From Alphaproteobacteria bacterium (lineage in GTDB: Bacteria > Pseudomonadota > Alphaproteobacteria > GCA-2731375), in NCBI GenBank assembly GCA_016869175.1, contig VGEV01000011.1:1-44372 (forward strand): 44,372 nt of DNA, written 5' to 3'. This document shows, piece after piece, positions 36,884 to 44,073 of this stretch. The notes beneath the pieces are model-generated. The model searched no databases. It was not told the origin of the DNA and worked only from the letters and a program-made list of their open reading frames with translations. Position numbers and translations under genes: made by a program. Position 1 is the first letter of the stretch; each line of letters starts with the position of its first letter.

Positions 36884-38875
36884 ATGTGGGTCGAGGTCGG
36901 GCATTTCGCCTTCGCCATGGCATTGGTGGTGGCCCTGGTGCAGGGCACGCTGCCGTTGCTGGGCGCGCATCGCGGCGACGCAGGCTTGATCGCGCTGGCC
37001 CGGCCGGCCGCCGTCCTCCAGCTCGTGCTCGTCGCGGTTGCCTTCGCCGGCCTGACGCAGGCCTACGTGACTTCCGATTTCTCGGTGTTGAACGTCGTCA
37101 ACAACTCGCATTCGGCCAAGCCGATGCTCTACAAGATCAGCGGCGTGTGGGGCAATCACGAGGGGTCGCTGGTCCTCTGGGTGCTGATCCTGGCGCTGTT
37201 CGGCGCCGGCGTCGCGCTGTTCGGTCGCAACCTGCCGCCCGCCTTCCGCGCCCGCGTGCTGGCGGTGCAGGCGCTGATCGCCGTCGGCTTCCTGGCATTC
37301 AGCCTGTTCACCTCCAACCCGTTCCTGCGGGCGTTGCCACCGCCGGCCGACGGCAACGGCCTCAATCCGCTGCTGCAGGATCCCGGCCTCGCCTTCCATC
37401 CGCCGTTCCTCTATCTCGGCTATGTCGGCTTCTCGATCGCCTATTCCTTTGCCGTGGCGGCGTTGCTGGAGGGCCGTGTCGATGCCGCCTGGGCGCGCTG
37501 GGTCAGGCCGTGGACGCTGGCGGCCTGGTGCGCGCTCACCGTCGGCATCGCGCTCGGCAGCTGGTGGGCCTATTACGAGCTCGGCTGGGGTGGCTGGTGG
37601 TTTTGGGATCCGGTCGAGAACGCCTCGTTCATGCCCTGGCTCTCCGGCACCGCGCTGCTGCATTCGGCGATCGTGGTGGAGAAGCGCGATACGCTGAAAA
37701 GCTGGACCATCCTGCTTGCCATATTGACCTTCTCGCTCAGCCTGCTCGGCACCTTCTTGGTGCGTTCGGGCGTATTGACCTCGGTGCACGCCTTCGCGAC
37801 CGATCCGACGCGCGGCGTCTTCATCCTGGCCTTCTTTGTCTTGGTCGTGGCGGGTTCGCTGGCGCTTTACGCCTGGCGTGCGCCGGCGCTGAAGCCGGGC
37901 GGGTTGTTCCAGCCGGTGAGCCGCGAAGGCGCGCTGGTGCTCAACAACCTGCTGCTGGCGACGGCCTGCGGCACGGTGTTCCTGGGCACGCTCTATCCGC
38001 TCTTCCTCGACGCGCTGACCGGCGACAAGGTGTCGGTCGGTCCGCCGTTCTTCAATCTCACGTTCGGGCCGCTGATGGTGCCGCTGATCGCCGCCATGGC
38101 GGTCGGCCCGATGCTGTCCTGGAAGCGCGCCGACTTGGCGGGCGCGCTTGCCCGGTTGAAATTCGCCTTCGCGGCCGCGCTGCTGGCGACGCTCGCGGCG
38201 GCGGCGCTCGCCCATCGCGGGCCTTGGCTTGCCATTCCGTTGCTCGGGCTCGGCGTCTGGGCGATCACCGGCAGCCTGGTCGAGCTGGCGGAGCGGCTGA
38301 AATTGTTCCGCGCTCCGCTCTCCGACAGCCTGTCGCGCGCCGGCCACCTGCCGCGCGCCGCCTGGGGCATGAGCCTGGCGCATGCCGGCATGGGGGTCAT
38401 GCTGTTGGGCGTGGTCGGCGCCAGTGCCTGGCAGCAGGAACAGCTGCAGGTGATGAGACCGGGCCAGCAGGCGACCCTTGCCGGATACAGCTTCACGTTT
38501 CGCGGCGCGCGACCGGTCCAGGGCCCCAATTACAGCGCCATCGAGGGCAGCTTCCAAGTGACGCGGGACGGCCGGGAGGTTGGGCTGCTGGTGTCCCAGA
38601 GCCGAACGTTCCGCAACCCGCCGATGCAGACCAGCGAGGCGGCGATCCGACCGCGCCCAAGCGGCGATCTTTACGCGGTGATCGGCGAGCCGGCGGGCGA
38701 CGGCGGCTATGCGACGCGGCTCTATCACAAGCCCCTGGTGCACTGGATCTGGGGCGGCGCAATGATCATGGTGCTGGGCGGCCTGCTGTCGCTGTCCGAC
38801 CGCCGGCTGCGGGTTGGCTCGCCGGTTCGGCGCCGGGCGCCGGCCGGCGTGGCGTTGGCCGGCGCCGGGGATTAG
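36884..38875 (+). CDS. ccmF: Cytochrome c heme lyase subunit CcmF
   Basis: CcmF receives heme from CcmE and, with CcmH and CcmI, attaches it to the CXXCH motif of apocytochromes in the periplasm. The 663-residue protein is highly hydrophobic, with about 15 helices. It shows SDFSVLNVVNNSHSAKPMLYK near residue 70, SGVWGNHEGSLVLWVL, the WWD motif ELGWGGWWFWDPVENASFMP near 235 and SLLGTFLVRSGVLTSVHAFA near 290. ATG 36884 starts MWVEVGHFAFAMAL; the frame upstream overlaps the Ldh-type gene. Confidence 0.96.
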   Translation: MWVEVGHFAFAMALVVALVQGTLPLLGAHRGDAGLIALARPAAVLQLVLVAVAFAGLTQAYVTSDFSVLNVVNNSHSAKPMLYKISGVWGNHEGSLVLWVLILALFGAGVALFGRNLPPAFRARVLAVQALIAVGFLAFSLFTSNPFLRALPPPADGNGLNPLLQDPGLAFHPPFLYLGYVGFSIAYSFAVAALLEGRVDAAWARWVRPWTLAAWCALTVGIALGSWWAYYELGWGGWWFWDPVENASFMPWLSGTALLHSAIVVEKRDTLKSWTILLAILTFSLSLLGTFLVRSGVLTSVHAFATDPTRGVFILAFFVLVVAGSLALYAWRAPALKPGGLFQPVSREGALVLNNLLLATACGTVFLGTLYPLFLDALTGDKVSVGPPFFNLTFGPLMVPLIAAMAVGPMLSWKRADLAGALARLKFAFAAALLATLAAAALAHRGPWLAIPLLGLGVWAITGSLVELAERLKLFRAPLSDSLSRAGHLPRAAWGMSLAHAGMGVMLLGVVGASAWQQEQLQVMRPGQQATLAGYSFTFRGARPVQGPNYSAIEGSFQVTRDGREVGLLVSQSRTFRNPPMQTSEAAIRPRPSGDLYAVIGEPAGDGGYATRLYHKPLVHWIWGGAMIMVLGGLLSLSDRRLRVGSPVRRRAPAGVALAGAGD

Positions 38876-38879
38876 CGGC

Positions 38880-39473
38880 ATGAGCAATGTGAGCCGGTCC
38901 GCTGCCGCCGCCGGTTGGCTGCGCCTGCGTTGCATCCTTTGGGCGCTGGTGCCGCTCGTCCTGTTCGCGGCGGTCGGCGGCTTTCTCTATCAGGGCCTCT
39001 ATCTCAAGCCGCGCGAGCTGCCGTCCGCCCTGCTCGGCAGGCCGGCTCCGGCGTTCGACCTGCCGCCGCTGCCGGGCAAGCAGCAGTTCCGGCATGCCGA
39101 CCTCAAGGGCGAGGTCTCGCTGGTCAACATCTTCGCCTCCTGGTGCGCCGCCTGCCGGGTCGAGCATCCGCTGCTGATGCGCCTGGCGGAAGACAAGGTG
39201 CTGCCGGTGTACGGCTTCAATTACAAGGACGACAGCGAAGCGGCGCTCGGTTGGCTGAAGCGTTTCGGCGATCCCTATGGGCGCATCGCGGTCGACCGCA
39301 CCGGCCGCACCGGCATCGACTGGGGGGTCTATGGCGTGCCGGAAAGCTTCCTCGTCGACCGCGAGGGGCGCATCGTCTGCAAGCATATCGGCCCGGTCAT
39401 GGAGCGCGACCTGGCGGAGAAGCTGCGGCCGGCGATTGCCGCGGCGCGCGCCGGGCAGCCGGTCAAGTGCTGA
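38880..39473 (+). CDS. ccmG: Thiol:disulfide interchange protein CcmG (DsbE)
   Basis: This 197-residue membrane-anchored periplasmic thioredoxin keeps apocytochrome or CcmH cysteines reduced. It has an N-terminal helix (about residues 20-42), then PAPAFDLPPLPG, the active site FASWCAACRVEHP with Cys89 and Cys92, and the cis-proline segment GVPESFLVDREG. YGFNYKDDSEAALGWL matches the acidic CcmG-specific region. It is 4 bp after ccmF, and its stop overlaps ccmH. Confidence 0.94.
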   Translation: MSNVSRSAAAAGWLRLRCILWALVPLVLFAAVGGFLYQGLYLKPRELPSALLGRPAPAFDLPPLPGKQQFRHADLKGEVSLVNIFASWCAACRVEHPLLMRLAEDKVLPVYGFNYKDDSEAALGWLKRFGDPYGRIAVDRTGRTGIDWGVYGVPESFLVDREGRIVCKHIGPVMERDLAEKLRPAIAAARAGQPVKC

Positions 39474-39940
39474 TGCGCTGGCTTGCCATCCTGTTGCAGC
39501 TGCTCGTTCTGGTTGGTCCGGCGGCGGCGTTCGAGGTGGACCGACCGCTGGCCGATCCCGCGCAGGAAGCCCGTGCCAAGAGCCTGCAGAAAGAACTGCG
39601 CTGCTTGGTCTGCCAGAACCAGTCGATCGACGACAGCAACGCGCCGCTGGCCCGCGACCTGCGGCTGCTGCTGCGCGAACGCATTGCCGCCGGCGACAGC
39701 GACGCGGCCGCACTTGACTACATGGTGCAGCGCTATGGCGACTGGGTGCTGCTAAAGCCGCCGTTCAAGGCGGGCACCTATGCCTTATGGCTGGGTCCGC
39801 CGATGCTGGTGCTGGGCGCGGCGTTGGGCGTTCGGCTGTGGCTGCGCCGGCGCTCCGGCGCCGAACCGATCGACACACCCCTATCAGCGGACGAGCGGCG
39901 GCGGTTGCAGGCCTTGCTGGCGGGCCGGGACGACCGCTGA
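39473..39940 (+). CDS. ccmH: Cytochrome c-type biogenesis protein CcmH
   Basis: This 155-residue protein has a signal peptide (about residues 1-19, ending PAAAF) and a three-helix periplasmic domain with the redox motif LRCLVCQNQSIDDSNA (Cys44 and Cys47). LRLLLRERIAAGDSDAAAL and YMVQRYGDWVLLKPP follow, then a C-terminal membrane helix (about 102-122). It forms the thiol-reducing arm of the heme lyase with CcmF and CcmI. The motif has Leu where many homologues have Pro (RCPVCQ). The start shares one base with the ccmG stop. Confidence 0.95.
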   Translation: MRWLAILLQLLVLVGPAAAFEVDRPLADPAQEARAKSLQKELRCLVCQNQSIDDSNAPLARDLRLLLRERIAAGDSDAAALDYMVQRYGDWVLLKPPFKAGTYALWLGPPMLVLGAALGVRLWLRRRSGAEPIDTPLSADERRRLQALLAGRDDR

Positions 39941-41346
39941 TGCTTTGGCTCGCGATCGCGGCGATCATCGCCATCTGCCTCCTGGCGTTGCTCTGGCCGC
40001 TGCTGCGCGCCCGTCCGGCCCAGGCGTCTCGGCTGGACTACGATCTGGCGATCCACTTGGCCCAGTTGGCGGAACTGGAGGCGGACCGGCAGCGCGGGTT
40101 GTTGAGCGAAGAGGCCGCCGTCAACGCGCGCAGCGAGATCGAGCGGCGGATGTTGCGCGCGGCCGAACGCGCGGCGCCGGCCGAGCGTCCACGCGCGAGT
40201 TGGGCACTGGTCACCGCTGGCGGCTTGGCCATCGCGCTGCCGTTCGCCGCGGCGCTGCTCTATGCATGGCTTGGTCAGCCGTACGAGCGGGACCGGCCGC
40301 TGGCTTCGCGGGGCGATCTGCCGGTCCAGGCGGAACAGGCCGCTGGCGGCGACCTTGATGACGCGACGGCGGCGCTGGAGGAACGGCTCAAACGGCAGCC
40401 GGACGACCGCCAGGGCTGGCAATTGCTCGGACAGGGCCGCTGGCAGCAGGGCCGCTTCGCCGATGCGGCCGAGGCCTACGCACGCGCGGCCGCCCTTGGT
40501 CCGGTCGATGTCAACGTGCAGATGGCGCTGGGCGAGGCGCTGACCTTCGCGGCGCAGGGCACGGTCACGCCGGCCGCGCGCACGGCCTTTGCCAAGGCCC
40601 TGCAGGTCGATGCCCGCAATCCTGGCGCCCGCTACTATCTGGCGCTGGCGGACTTGCAGGCGGGCCGTCGGTCCGAGGCTTACCAGGCATGGCTGGCGCT
40701 GGCCCGCGACACCGCCGCGGACGCACCCTGGCTGCCGGCATTGCGGCGCCGGTTGATCGAGACCGGCAACGCGCTGGGCCGCGGCACGATGGCGGAACTG
40801 CCCGAGCATTTCCGCGCCGAACCGGCACAGCCGGCGCAGGCCGCCACGGCGCCGGGTCCCAGCCGCGAGGACGTGCAGGCCGCGATGCAGATGGCGCCGG
40901 AGGATCGCCAGCAATTCATCCGTTCCATGGTGGAGCGGCTGGCCGAGCGGCTGCGTCAGCAACCGGACGATTTCGAAGGCTGGATGCGGCTTGGCCGGGC
41001 GCACGCGGTACTGGGCGAGACGGCGCAGTCCGAGGAAGCCTACGAGCGCGCCGCCGGCCTGCAATCGAACGACGTCGCGCGGGCGACCCGCGTGGCCGAG
41101 GCGCTGATCGCGGCGACGCCGCCAGAGGCGCCGCCCACCGACCGGGCCGTGGAAGCCTATCGGCGCCTGTTGGCGCTGTCGCCGGAACATCCCGAAGCGC
41201 TGTGGTATGCCGGGATAGGCGACCTGCGGCTTGGCAACGTGGTGGCCGCCAGCGAGAAATGGCGCCGTCTGCTGACCCAGCTCGACCCCAACGGCGCCGA
41301 CCACGCCGCAATCAAGCAACAGATCGAGGCGCTGACCCGGCGCTGA
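39940..41346 (+). CDS. ccmI: C-type cytochrome biogenesis protein CcmI
   Basis: This 468-residue bipartite protein has a first helix (about residues 1-20), a cytoplasmic leucine-rich loop with LDYDLAIHLAQLAELEADRQRGLLSEEAA, a second helix (about 90-108) and a large periplasmic TPR domain. TPR units are visible at WQLLGQGRWQQGRFADAAEAY and WMRLGRAHAVLGETAQSEEAY. CcmI holds the C-termini of apocytochromes for the heme lyase. It shares one base with the ccmH stop and ends the ccm cluster. The azt unit begins about 70 bp later. Confidence 0.93.
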   Translation: MLWLAIAAIIAICLLALLWPLLRARPAQASRLDYDLAIHLAQLAELEADRQRGLLSEEAAVNARSEIERRMLRAAERAAPAERPRASWALVTAGGLAIALPFAAALLYAWLGQPYERDRPLASRGDLPVQAEQAAGGDLDDATAALEERLKRQPDDRQGWQLLGQGRWQQGRFADAAEAYARAAALGPVDVNVQMALGEALTFAAQGTVTPAARTAFAKALQVDARNPGARYYLALADLQAGRRSEAYQAWLALARDTAADAPWLPALRRRLIETGNALGRGTMAELPEHFRAEPAQPAQAATAPGPSREDVQAAMQMAPEDRQQFIRSMVERLAERLRQQPDDFEGWMRLGRAHAVLGETAQSEEAYERAAGLQSNDVARATRVAEALIAATPPEAPPTDRAVEAYRRLLALSPEHPEALWYAGIGDLRLGNVVAASEKWRRLLTQLDPNGADHAAIKQQIEALTRR

Positions 41347-41375
41347 GATCGTCGTGTCGCCGGACGCAACCTTAG

Positions 41376-41396
41376 GATATGTTATAATCTTCCAGG
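41376..41396 (+). promoter_or_regulatory. Extended -10 promoter with a Zur-like half-site, upstream of the azt unit
   Basis: In a GC-rich setting, GATATGTTATAATC at 41376-41389 stands out. It contains a perfect TATAAT at 41383-41388 preceded by TGT, i.e. an extended -10 element, which would start transcription near 41395. ATGTTATA is also the half-site typical of Zur operators, and the downstream arm is only weakly symmetric. Zinc-repressed control of an Azt zinc importer would make sense, but the operator call is inference. Confidence 0.45.
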
Positions 41397-41416
41397 TGTC
41401 GGGATGAGGGCGGAGC

Positions 41417-41515
41417 ATGTTGTCGGCTGCGGGCATGTGGCAGCGTGTGGCGGGCGCCGGGGCGGCCGCGCTCGGCCTTTGGCTGATCGTCGTCTGGCTG
41501 CTGTCGAGCGTTTGA
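41417..41515 (+). CDS. Small hydrophobic peptide (32 aa) heading the azt operon
   Basis: ATG 41417 with a purine-rich GAGGGCGGAG immediately upstream encodes 32 residues. The first half is MLSAAGMWQRVAGAG, and the second half, AAALGLWLIVVWLLSSV, is a single membrane helix. The stop at 41513-41515 overlaps the AGGAGG ribosome-binding site of aztA, giving an 10-base gap to its ATG, a layout typical of coupled genes. It lies just downstream of the extended -10 promoter. I do not recognise a family. It could be a small subunit or regulator of the transporter, or a leader peptide. Confidence 0.5.
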   Translation: MLSAAGMWQRVAGAGAAALGLWLIVVWLLSSV

Positions 41516-41525
41516 GGAGGCTGGC

Positions 41526-42269
41526 ATGCCGCCCGCCCTGGTGCTCGACAACCTGACCGTCGCCTACGACCGCCATTCGGCGGTGCACCACCTGAGCGGC
41601 CGGTTCGAACCGGGGTCGCTGACCGCGCTGGTCGGGCCGAACGGAGCGGGCAAGAGTACCCTGCTCAAGGCGCTGACCGGGGAGTTGCGCGCGGCCGAGG
41701 GGCGCATCGACCTGGGCGGTCTGAAGCCCGGCGATCTCGCCTATCTGCCGCAGCATTCGGCCCTCGACCGCACCTTCCCCATCGATGTGCTGGAGATGGT
41801 GCTGCTGGGCCTGTGGGGGCGTGTCGGTCCATTCGGCCGCGTGACAATGGCGATGCGCGAGGAGGGGCGACGCGCCCTCTCGGCGGTCAAGCTTGCGGGC
41901 TTCGAGCGACGGTCGATCGCCAGCCTGTCGGTCGGCCAGTTGCAGCGCGCGCTGTTCGCCCGCGTGCTGCTGCAGGACGCGCCCATCATCTTGTTGGACG
42001 AACCGTTCAACGCCATCGACGCCAGGACGACAGCCGATCTCGTGCAGCAGATCTACCGCTGGCATGGCGAGCGCCGCACGGTGGTTGCCGCGCTGCACGA
42101 CCTGGGCCAGGTGCGCGAGCATTTCCCGCAAACGTTGTTGCTGGCGCGGCGCTGCGTCGATTGGGGGCCGACCGCCAGGGTGCTGACCGCCGAAAATCAG
42201 TTCCGCGCGCGCGGCATGGCCGAGAACTGGGCAGCCTCGGCGGCGATATGCCGGTCGGCGGTCGCCTGA
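41526..42269 (+). CDS. aztA: Zinc ABC transporter ATP-binding protein AztA
   Basis: This 247-residue ATPase belongs to a metal-ion ABC importer. It has Walker A VGPNGAGKSTLLKAL (near residue 38), Q-loop YLPQHSALDRTFPIDVLEMV, signature LSVGQLQRALFARVLLQD and Walker B IILLDEPFNAIDART. The switch histidine lies in AALHDLGQVREHFP. The DRTFPI and HFPQTLLLAR stretches resemble AztA of the Paracoccus-type AztABCD system more than ZnuC. The permease and binding-protein genes follow with overlapping stops and starts. Manganese as substrate cannot be excluded from sequence. Confidence 0.85.
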   Translation: MPPALVLDNLTVAYDRHSAVHHLSGRFEPGSLTALVGPNGAGKSTLLKALTGELRAAEGRIDLGGLKPGDLAYLPQHSALDRTFPIDVLEMVLLGLWGRVGPFGRVTMAMREEGRRALSAVKLAGFERRSIASLSVGQLQRALFARVLLQDAPIILLDEPFNAIDARTTADLVQQIYRWHGERRTVVAALHDLGQVREHFPQTLLLARRCVDWGPTARVLTAENQFRARGMAENWAASAAICRSAVA

Positions 42270-43141
42270 TGGCGCTTTACGAGCTGTTGCTGCAACCGTT
42301 CGCCGAGTTCGCCTTCATGCGGCGCGCGCTGGTGGCCAGCCTGGCCTTGGCGTTCGGCTGCGGGCCGGTTGGCGTGCTGCTGGTGCTCAGGCGCATGAGC
42401 CTGGTCGGCGATGCGATGAGCCATGCCATCCTGCCGGGGGCCGCCGTCGGCTTTCTGATGGCGGGCTTGTCGCTGGGCTGGATGAGCGTGGGCGGGCTGT
42501 TGGCGGGCCTCGCGGTGGCGCTGGGCTCGGGCCTGCTGTCGCGGGCCACCGTGCTGCCCGAGGATGCCAGCTTCGCCGCCTTCTATGCCGTGGCGTTGGC
42601 GGCGGGCGTGCTGCTGGTGTCGTGGAAAGGCAGCAATGTCGATCTCATGCACGTGCTGTTTGGCAGCGTCCTGGCCGTGGACGACGACGCCCTGCTGCTG
42701 ATCGCCGCCGTCGCCACGCTGACCTTGCTGCTGGGCGCGGCGATCTATCGACCGCTGGTGACGGAATGTTTCGACCCTGGCTTCCTGCGCCAGGTGGGCG
42801 GCCGCGGCGGCTTCTACCACATGGCCTTCATGGCGCTGGTGGTGCTGAACCTGGTGGCCGCCTTCCAGGCACTGGGGACTTTGATGGCGGTCGGCCTGAT
42901 GATGCTGCCGGCGGTGTCCGCGCGGCTCTGGGCAACACGCCTCTGGAGCCTGATGGCGCTGAGCGTCGCCTTCGGCATCGCCGCCGGCTATGGCGGCTTG
43001 GTGCTGTCCTTTCATGTCGACGTGCCGAGCGGTCCGGCCATCGTGCTGGCGGCGGGCGCGCTCTATGTCTCGTCGCTGTTGCTGGGGCGTGAGGGGCTGC
43101 TGCGGCGGCACCTCGCGCGGTTCCGCCATCTCGAAGCGTGA
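42269..43141 (+). CDS. aztB: Zinc ABC transporter permease AztB
   Basis: This 290-residue membrane protein has eight or nine helices of the ABC-3 metal permease family. Landmarks are RRALVASLALAFGCGPVGVLLVLRR at the N-terminus, LVGDAMSHAILPGAAVGF (the cytoplasmic coupling region, near residue 45), FGSVLAVDDDALLLI near 130 and LMAVGLMMLPAVSARLWA near 210. ATG 42269 shares one base with the aztA stop. The large open frame upstream lies in aztA and is not used. The stop overlaps a GTG that could start aztC early. Confidence 0.88.
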   Translation: MALYELLLQPFAEFAFMRRALVASLALAFGCGPVGVLLVLRRMSLVGDAMSHAILPGAAVGFLMAGLSLGWMSVGGLLAGLAVALGSGLLSRATVLPEDASFAAFYAVALAAGVLLVSWKGSNVDLMHVLFGSVLAVDDDALLLIAAVATLTLLLGAAIYRPLVTECFDPGFLRQVGGRGGFYHMAFMALVVLNLVAAFQALGTLMAVGLMMLPAVSARLWATRLWSLMALSVAFGIAAGYGGLVLSFHVDVPSGPAIVLAAGALYVSSLLLGREGLLRRHLARFRHLEA

Positions 43142-43152
43142 GGAGGGCGAGG

Positions 43153-44073
43153 ATGCGCCGTTCGATGTTGGTGCTTGGCTTGCTGCTGCTGTTTCCGACG
43201 CTGGCCCTGGCGCAAGATCCGGTGCGCAAGCTGAAGGTAGTGGCCTCGTTCAGCATCCTGGCCGACATGGCGCGCGAAGTGGGCGGCGAGGCGGTGACGG
43301 TCGACAGCATCGTCGGCCCGGACCAGGACATGCACGTCTATGAGCCGGCTCCGGCCGATGCCCGACGTCTTGCGGATGCCGGACTGGTGCTGGTGCTGGG
43401 TTTGGGCTTCGACCGCGGCGTCCAGCAATTGGCCAAGTCGGCGGGCTTTCGTGGCGAGTTGGTGCCGGTCAGCGCCGGCATCCCGACGCGCAAGGAGCAC
43501 GACCATGGCCACGGCAAGGCGCAAGGCCACGCGCATGGCGCCTTCGATCCGCATGTCTGGCAGGACCCGGAACGGGCGCGTGCCATGGTGCGCAATATCG
43601 AGGCAGCCCTCGCCAAGCGCGACCCGGCGCGGGCTGCGCTCTATCGGGCCAACGCCGAACGCTATGACGCGGAGCTGTGGCGCCTGCGGGACTGGGCGTC
43701 GGCCGAAGTCGCGAGCGTGCCCAAGGACCAGCGCAAGGTCGTCACCAGCCACGAATCCTTCGGCTATCTGGGCGAACGGTTTGGCATCCGGTTCGAGGCG
43801 CCGCAAAGCTTCGGCACCGACAGCGAACCATCGGCCAAGGCGGTCGCCCGGCTCATCCAGCAACTCAAGCGCGATCGGACGCGGGCGATCTTCCTGGAGA
43901 ACATCGCCAATCCGCGCACGCTGGAACGGATAGCGCAGGAGGCCGGCGTGCGGATCGGCGGCCGGCTCTACTCGGACGCGCTTTCGGCGCCGGACGGACC
44001 GGCGCCCACCTATCTCGCGATGATGCGGCACAATATCGGCCAGCTCGTCGCCGCGCTGCGCCCGGCAAGTTGA
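43153..44073 (+). CDS. aztC: Zinc ABC transporter substrate-binding protein AztC
   Basis: This 306-residue periplasmic binding protein of cluster A-I begins at ATG 43153 with AGGAGG 6 bases upstream; GTG 43138 is an alternative. A signal peptide (about residues 1-20, ending LALAQ) precedes VVASFSILADMAREVGG. Metal ligands expected for AztC/ZnuA proteins are His61 (DMHVYEP), His134 (FDPHVWQD), His200 (TSHESFGYLG) and Asp275 (YSDALS). The histidine-rich loop EHDHGHGKAQGHAHG lies before the second ligand. VENI-type ENIANPRTLERIAQEAG is present. No aztD gene follows in the window. Confidence 0.88.
   Translation: MRRSMLVLGLLLLFPTLALAQDPVRKLKVVASFSILADMAREVGGEAVTVDSIVGPDQDMHVYEPAPADARRLADAGLVLVLGLGFDRGVQQLAKSAGFRGELVPVSAGIPTRKEHDHGHGKAQGHAHGAFDPHVWQDPERARAMVRNIEAALAKRDPARAALYRANAERYDAELWRLRDWASAEVASVPKDQRKVVTSHESFGYLGERFGIRFEAPQSFGTDSEPSAKAVARLIQQLKRDRTRAIFLENIANPRTLERIAQEAGVRIGGRLYSDALSAPDGPAPTYLAMMRHNIGQLVAALRPAS

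Follow-up and report, generated by a model that had tools for sequence, protein, structure and literature searches.

Does the gap in front of the zinc importer genes at the end of this alphaproteobacterial contig encode a protein, and if so, what does the protein do for the transporter? The stretch of DNA analysed here (the window; 44,372 nucleotides) ends in an operon for an AztA-AztB-AztC-like zinc importer, whose genes are adjacent or overlapping, and a small ORF occupies the gap after the preceding ORF, which ends at 41346, and before aztA, which starts at 41526. The original prediction was that this ORF encodes a short membrane peptide that leads an azt operon. From the comparison of sequences, we consider it highly probable that the peptide serves Azt/Zni-type zinc (ABC-3) importers as a fourth subunit, embedded in the membrane.

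The small ORF and its operon

The operon combines an ATPase, an ABC-3 permease and a ZnuA-type binding protein (Table 1), which is the composition of an Azt/Zni-type importer. The label azt calls for caution: the three proteins are homologous to AztA, AztB and AztC but score below the NCBIfam equivalog cut-offs for AztABCD in the strict sense, and the classical AztABCD clade is without the peptide. No AztD match was found at the locus of the window (L003), although both this locus and the window stop at or soon after aztC and aztD could lie beyond. The start of aztC was our choice; the ORF list has a GTG at 43138. In the other 14 genomes from the same family as the window (G001-G014), aztA gave no match at E ≤ 1e-30, so the lineage of the window may have acquired the operon or be the only one to have retained it. 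The region 5' of the small ORF (38814-41346) resembles, by eye, a cytochrome c maturation cluster with thioredoxin-like, CcmH-like and TPR/CcmI-like genes.

Table 1. Features in and around the small ORF, with positions in the window.
Feature	Positions	Strand	Evidence
Zur-like half box GATATGTTATAATC, overlapping TATAAT	41376..41398	+	Zur-consensus scan, score 15
Shine-Dalgarno of the small ORF, GAGG, ATG 7 nt further	41406..41409	+	read by eye
Small ORF, predicted single-helix membrane protein, 32 aa	41417..41515	+	ORF, family profile, selection, covariation with AztB
Shine-Dalgarno of aztA, GAGGAGG, overlapping the small-ORF stop	41514..41520	+	read by eye
AztA-like ATP-binding subunit	41526..42269	+	Pfam ABC_tran 2.1e-25; NCBIfam AztA 1.2e-60, 204.3 bits (cut-off 220)
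AztB-like ABC-3 permease	42269..43141	+	Pfam ABC-3 9.9e-53; NCBIfam AztB 265.3 bits (cut-off 280)
AztC/ZnuA-like periplasmic zinc-binding protein	43153..44073	+	Pfam ZnuA 1.1e-82; NCBIfam AztC 275.4 bits (cut-off 350)

The signals that had been claimed for the small ORF were all found. It has a ribosome-binding site and a clean start and stop (ATG 41417, TGA 41513-41515), its stop overlaps the ribosome site of aztA, which lies 5 nt before the aztA ATG, and its product, MLSAAGMWQRVAGAGAAALGLWLIVVWLLSSV, is predicted to form a single strongly hydrophobic helix (highest 17-residue mean hydropathy, 2.22) with R10, W22, V25 and W27 as key residues. The claim of a likely promoter directly upstream was borne out in part: a TATAAT resembling a -10 element is present at 41383-41388, but a sigma-70 scan of 41100-41700 gave no promoter at the scan threshold. 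The Zur-like half box is the top Zur-consensus window upstream, and its score is at the 99th percentile of shuffled sequences, not above. Of the 204 loci scanned, 74 have Zur-like boxes above that percentile ahead of the peptide core, at a median distance of 105 nt. The region has no RNA family match in Rfam, and no second copy of it was found in the genome of the window (3.97 Mb), barring one near match of 36 bases. Two other explanations of the ORF were rejected: it is not a 5' extension of AztA because the frames differ, and it is not a chance ORF because homologues are conserved at the same place and selection acts in this frame only.

A peptide family in front of aztA

Homologues were collected with a family profile. 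The stretches upstream of 125 loci with aztA hits were scanned, 105 fitted a loose pattern, and 99 distinct peptides, excluding that of the window, were used as seed. The profile was run over all six frames of every locus, duplicates were removed, which left 240 distinct loci, and at least 15 bits was taken as presence. By this measure 207 of the 240 loci have the peptide immediately before aztA. Peptides just 5' of aztA scored up to 53.6 bits; apart from L012 and L142, the best segment elsewhere reached 10.0 bits, against which the window peptide, although unseeded, scored 21.3 bits. The 33 negative loci comprise 19 from one AztA clade, three from a ZnuC-type outgroup (L019-L021), one at a contig end (L043), eight with divergent peptides that were recognised by eye (L007, L112, L145, L209, L215, L217, L261 and L264), L012, in which a gene is inserted between the peptide and aztA, and L142. 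The last is a plasmid locus of Bradyrhizobium sp. 155 (L142:5521-6663), in which the stand-alone peptide is absent and the helix is the membrane anchor of an NxxGxxAF/DUF7453 protein, encoded after the binding protein of an Azt-like operon.

In a draw across the phylum (L176-L202), none of whose loci was in the seed, the peptide was present in 27/27 loci. The family extends over alpha-, beta- and gammaproteobacteria and one Desulfocapsa MAG, and its named hosts include Variovorax, Rhizobium, Agrobacterium, Pseudomonas, Herbaspirillum and Kushneria. The peptide stop and the aztA start overlap by 4 nt in 113 of the 207 peptide loci, and a metal-transporter locus of N. gonorrhoeae (L271, about 2280-2502) also has a family member with a 4-nt overlap with the ATPase gene. 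Over the 60 codons that precede the conserved Arg, 47 of the 207 members have at least five His residues (for example, L025, L103, L112 and L118), a count that is an upper bound because the true start of some members is uncertain. Such His-rich N-terminal extensions would lie in the cytoplasm.

A second profile, built from an alignment of 82 rows (A1), was searched in all six frames against a class-wide draw of 385 whole genomes. At E ≤ 1e-3 there were 80 matches, 77 of them just upstream of aztA (61 judged by coordinates, at most 350 nt before a listed aztA, and 16 by fetched loci). The remaining three were two at contig ends and one with the inserted gene (G029, the L012 locus). The first unlinked match had an E of 0.0015 and was inside a 432-residue frame; the window peptide was matched at 4.4e-6. 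In the same draw 62 genomes had aztA at E ≤ 1e-70, and 52 of these also had a peptide match at E ≤ 1e-3. The proposed link to the transporter is thus upheld by a near-exclusive association with aztA, as well as by the covariation with AztB described below; regulating or stabilising the transporter, as originally suggested, would be one way for the peptide to act.

The conservation is that of a protein. In alignment A1 an Arg before the helix is invariant, and a Leu, two Trp and an Ala are conserved in at least 90% of the rows. The window peptide carries this signature as R10, L21-W22 and W27, the second Trp following Leu-Trp by five residues, and has Leu at position 28, where most members have Ala. 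In the peptide frame pN/pS was 0.335 (pS 0.357, pN 0.120; 40 independent pairs, including the misaligned L211/L213), against 1.34 and 1.71 when these bases were read in the two alternative frames; the value for aztA was 0.134. Since pN/pS is low in the peptide frame only, it is the protein, beyond the RNA, that is conserved. The check suggested with the original prediction, namely conservation of the short ORF in relatives with synonymous-biased changes, was therefore positive, as frame, position, helix and residues are all kept.

Seven members, including that of the window, had no match near the cut-off in Pfam and NCBIfam, and no PDB chain matched the peptide profile. A tblastn search of plasmids with one Pseudomonas member found no match at E 10, possibly due to the low-complexity filter. 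The gene was thought to be unannotated and skipped by gene callers, but some records (Skermanella, Thioclava) list it as 'hypothetical protein'. We found no description of an azt-leading peptide in the accessible parts of the open-licence literature, including PMC7029138, PMC10393844, PMC8660799 and PMC3260306. Judged by its sequences, the family is widespread, real and undescribed.

Covariation with AztB and the predicted position in the permease

Mean-field DCA was carried out with a purpose-written script on the 194 loci that supplied both a peptide and a complete permease (effective number, 110). The top peptide-AztB pair was peptide residue 25 (profile column 27) with AztB residue 146, at a score of 4.34. 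The next peptide-AztB pair scored 1.84, six shuffled pairings gave at most 1.50, and the best pair within AztB reached 2.45; the best peptide-AztA pair scored 1.33. When the 36 rows with Ile-Gly were removed, the score of the top pair fell to 1.98, but the pair was still first. The residue combinations were Val-Ala (117), Ile-Gly (36), Phe-Cys (10), Ala-Val (5) and a few others. The volumes at the two sites are inversely correlated (rho -0.44, 188 rows), although Phe-Cys does not fit simple size compensation. On the tree both sites change on 11 of 386 branches, while the totals for the single sites are 24 and 25, and this joint change ranks first among 30 x 289 pairs. We use the rank and not the p value because the latter is inflated for joint changes, other, faster columns also reaching about 1e-6 to 1e-7.

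A second pair lies one turn away. AztB residue 150 is Ser or Thr in 190/190 rows with Trp at peptide position 22 and in 0/4 rows without it, and the Trp and the Ser/Thr were lost jointly on four branches. No other column among the 289 in AztB gives all four outliers residues that are unseen in the Trp rows. Ser/Thr at position 150 also occurs in none of the 19 peptide-less rows. Among the held-out loci the rule was obeyed by 9/9 divergent or fused members, which were aligned by eye, and by 8/10 others; the two exceptions among these 19 loci were Neisseria L271 (Trp with Gly) and L279 (Ala with Ser). The window has W22 with T150, and the fused anchor of L142 keeps the Trp and the Val while its AztB keeps Ser150 and Ala146. 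The peptide most likely docks on AztB helix 139-158, the evidence for this being covariation, which is distinct from a measured contact.

In an AlphaFold2 model of AztB (mean pLDDT 87.6), nine helices were found (15-40, 46-65, 69-93, 98-120, 139-158, 180-202, 204-219, 225-250 and 254-272), five of them before the presumed coupling loop. We infer from its position that the RPLVTECFDPGF stretch after helix 139-158 is this loop. Because helix 139-158 precedes the coupling loop, it would run from the periplasm to the cytoplasm. In the peptide family the N flank carries on average 1.89 Lys/Arg and the C tail 0.16, a bias that predicts a cytoplasmic N-terminus and a periplasmic C-terminus and hence an orientation antiparallel to helix 139-158. 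The charges and the covariation are two independent lines that agree in this respect, as residues 22 and 25 of the peptide and 150 and 146 of AztB would all lie near the periplasmic ends. The fusion of the L142 helix to a predicted periplasmic domain also fits a periplasmic C-terminus.

These observations suggest the following mechanism. The peptide would be the first product of the operon, its translation probably coupled to that of aztA, and would insert so that its N-terminus is cytoplasmic and its C-terminus periplasmic. It would then pack antiparallel on helix 139-158 of AztB, with W22 lying on Ser/Thr150 and V25 on A146, close to the periplasm. This AztB helix is predicted to lead from the periplasm to the loop that couples with the ATPase. 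By completing or bracing the permease, the peptide likely acts in assembly, in stability or in the gating of the helix by which the coupling loop is driven.

A more specific form of this mechanism is possible, and we put it forward tentatively: the peptide may represent the first transmembrane helix of a BtuC-type permease with ten helices, encoded as a separate gene. Permeases of the MntC type have nine helices and those of the BtuC type ten (PMC8487065), and in BhuU the coupling helix lies between the sixth and seventh helices (PMC5136619). AztB has five helices before its coupling loop as compared with six in BhuU, which would place the missing helix in the first half. The absent helix would run from cytoplasm to periplasm, as predicted for the peptide, and the peptide covaries with the helix-six equivalent of AztB. 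AztB is homologous to PsaBC (7kyp, 7kyo) and ZnuBC (9oko), with hmmsearch values of 4.6e-55 and 2.7e-31, and comparison with PsaBC gave a VIA Z of 24.6 and an rmsd of 4.9 over 218 residues; the VIA ranges give first and last residues only and do not settle which helix is missing. A split importer would consist of two peptides, two AztB and two AztA, and the peptide would have been lost once in the AztABCD line.

Probable loss of the peptide, alternative roles and related systems

In a quick maximum-likelihood tree of AztA (239 rows), the 19 peptide-less rows (L131, L133-L139, L141, L143, L235, L243, L245-L248, L250, L251 and L254) form one clade (SH-aLRT 98) that is nested within peptide-bearing rows. 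AztD was found in 12 of the 19; the other seven were without it in the sequence covered. On this tree, the distribution reads as a single loss of the peptide, in the line with the Paracoccus AztABCD systems. AztB of this clade is distinctive at positions 18, 26, 68, 150 and 229, and at 138 and 160, the ends of helix 139-158; position 26 has the bulkier Met, Leu or Val in place of the Ala or Cys found elsewhere. These clade-wide differences are only suggestive because they represent one event. An occupancy comparison of AztB found no extra N-terminal helix standing in for the peptide in this clade. To our knowledge E. coli ZnuBC also works without such a peptide, which, together with the AztABCD clade and the ZnuC-type loci L019-L021, indicates that the peptide is not needed by every transporter of this kind.

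The same distribution could mean that the peptide is an anchor or dock that holds AztC or AztD-like proteins, as periplasmic partners, close to the permease and that AztD replaced it in the AztABCD clade. The confinement of the peptide-less rows to one clade rich in AztD is in keeping with a dock, as is L142, whose helix forms part of a protein with a predicted periplasmic NxxGxxAF/DUF7453 domain and still obeys both pairings. We nevertheless regard this as unlikely, since the periplasmic tail of most members is a few residues long, and since three loci (L087, L094 and L095) have both the peptide and a distant AztD-like match (26-32% identity), so that peptide and AztD are not strictly exclusive. 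The loss of the peptide and the presence of AztD may even be unrelated, as one clade amounts to one event.

The His-rich members raise the question of whether the peptide handles zinc on its own, the cytoplasmic tail receiving or sensing zinc and the helix being an anchor. This seems improbable to us: most members, including that of the window, are without a His-rich tail, the conserved part is the helix, and the helix covaries with AztB and not detectably with AztA. We see even less chance that the ORF is a regulatory leader, translated only to couple or attenuate aztA translation, with an idle product. Its first place in the operon and the overlap of its stop with the aztA start or Shine-Dalgarno sequence would suit a leader, and the blank in Rfam does not exclude one. 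However, the protein sequence keeps its Arg, Leu-Trp and Trp-Ala, pN/pS is low, the covariation with AztB is residue-specific, and the peptide persists despite the inserted gene of L012 and in fusion with another protein in L142. A membrane-embedded subunit of the importer is the reading that we prefer.

Small single-helix subunits such as KdpF, AcrZ, MgtS, CydX and CcmD are encoded with, or act on, large membrane complexes and ride on their surface. The azt-leading peptide resembles them in type, and no sequence relation is claimed; membership of the KdpF or CydX families was rejected, as judged from family libraries only. None of the five, as far as we know, belongs to an ABC-3 metal permease. 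LucB, a conserved small transmembrane protein in a lipid ABC importer of Mycobacterium tuberculosis, was proposed to be a regulator (PMC10710835); it differs from the peptide in transporter class and organism, and the likeness is by description only.

Among known zinc importers, ZniCBA of Rhizobium leguminosarum (PMC12183173) and Klebsiella pneumoniae (PMC10797113) shares the ATPase-permease-binding protein order and zinc-regulated zinc import. It is described as a three-gene system, and the sections of these two reports that we consulted mention no small ORF. The Zur motif of R. leguminosarum lies 153 bp upstream of zniC, and the part of the promoter that is needed lies between 258 and 88 bp (PMC12183173). 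A motif at this distance leaves room for a small ORF such as that seen in the Rhizobium relatives L060, L067 and L069. AztABCD of Paracoccus denitrificans (PMC5387054, PMC7731109) shares homologues of AztA, AztB and AztC, whereas four Paracoccaceae loci (L131, L134, L138 and L139) and the Klebsiella plasmid locus L133, all five with AztD, are without the peptide. The Cupriavidus 'ZniCBA' (PMC11647595, PMC11647585, PMC9045368) was set aside because it is described as an RND efflux pump and not a zinc importer.

The literature that we consulted treats Azt/Zni importers as three- or four-gene systems. If the peptide is indeed a subunit, the complexes used to reconstitute such permeases or to solve their structures may be incomplete, and constructs that start at the ATPase gene omit it. 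The analysis yields a docking prediction at the residue level on an ABC-3 permease, with peptide residues 22 and 25 facing AztB residues 150 and 146. Many proteobacteria take up zinc through Azt/Zni-type importers, as a main or a backup route. If the peptide proves to be a split-off helix, this may explain why ABC-3 permeases seem to be one helix short.
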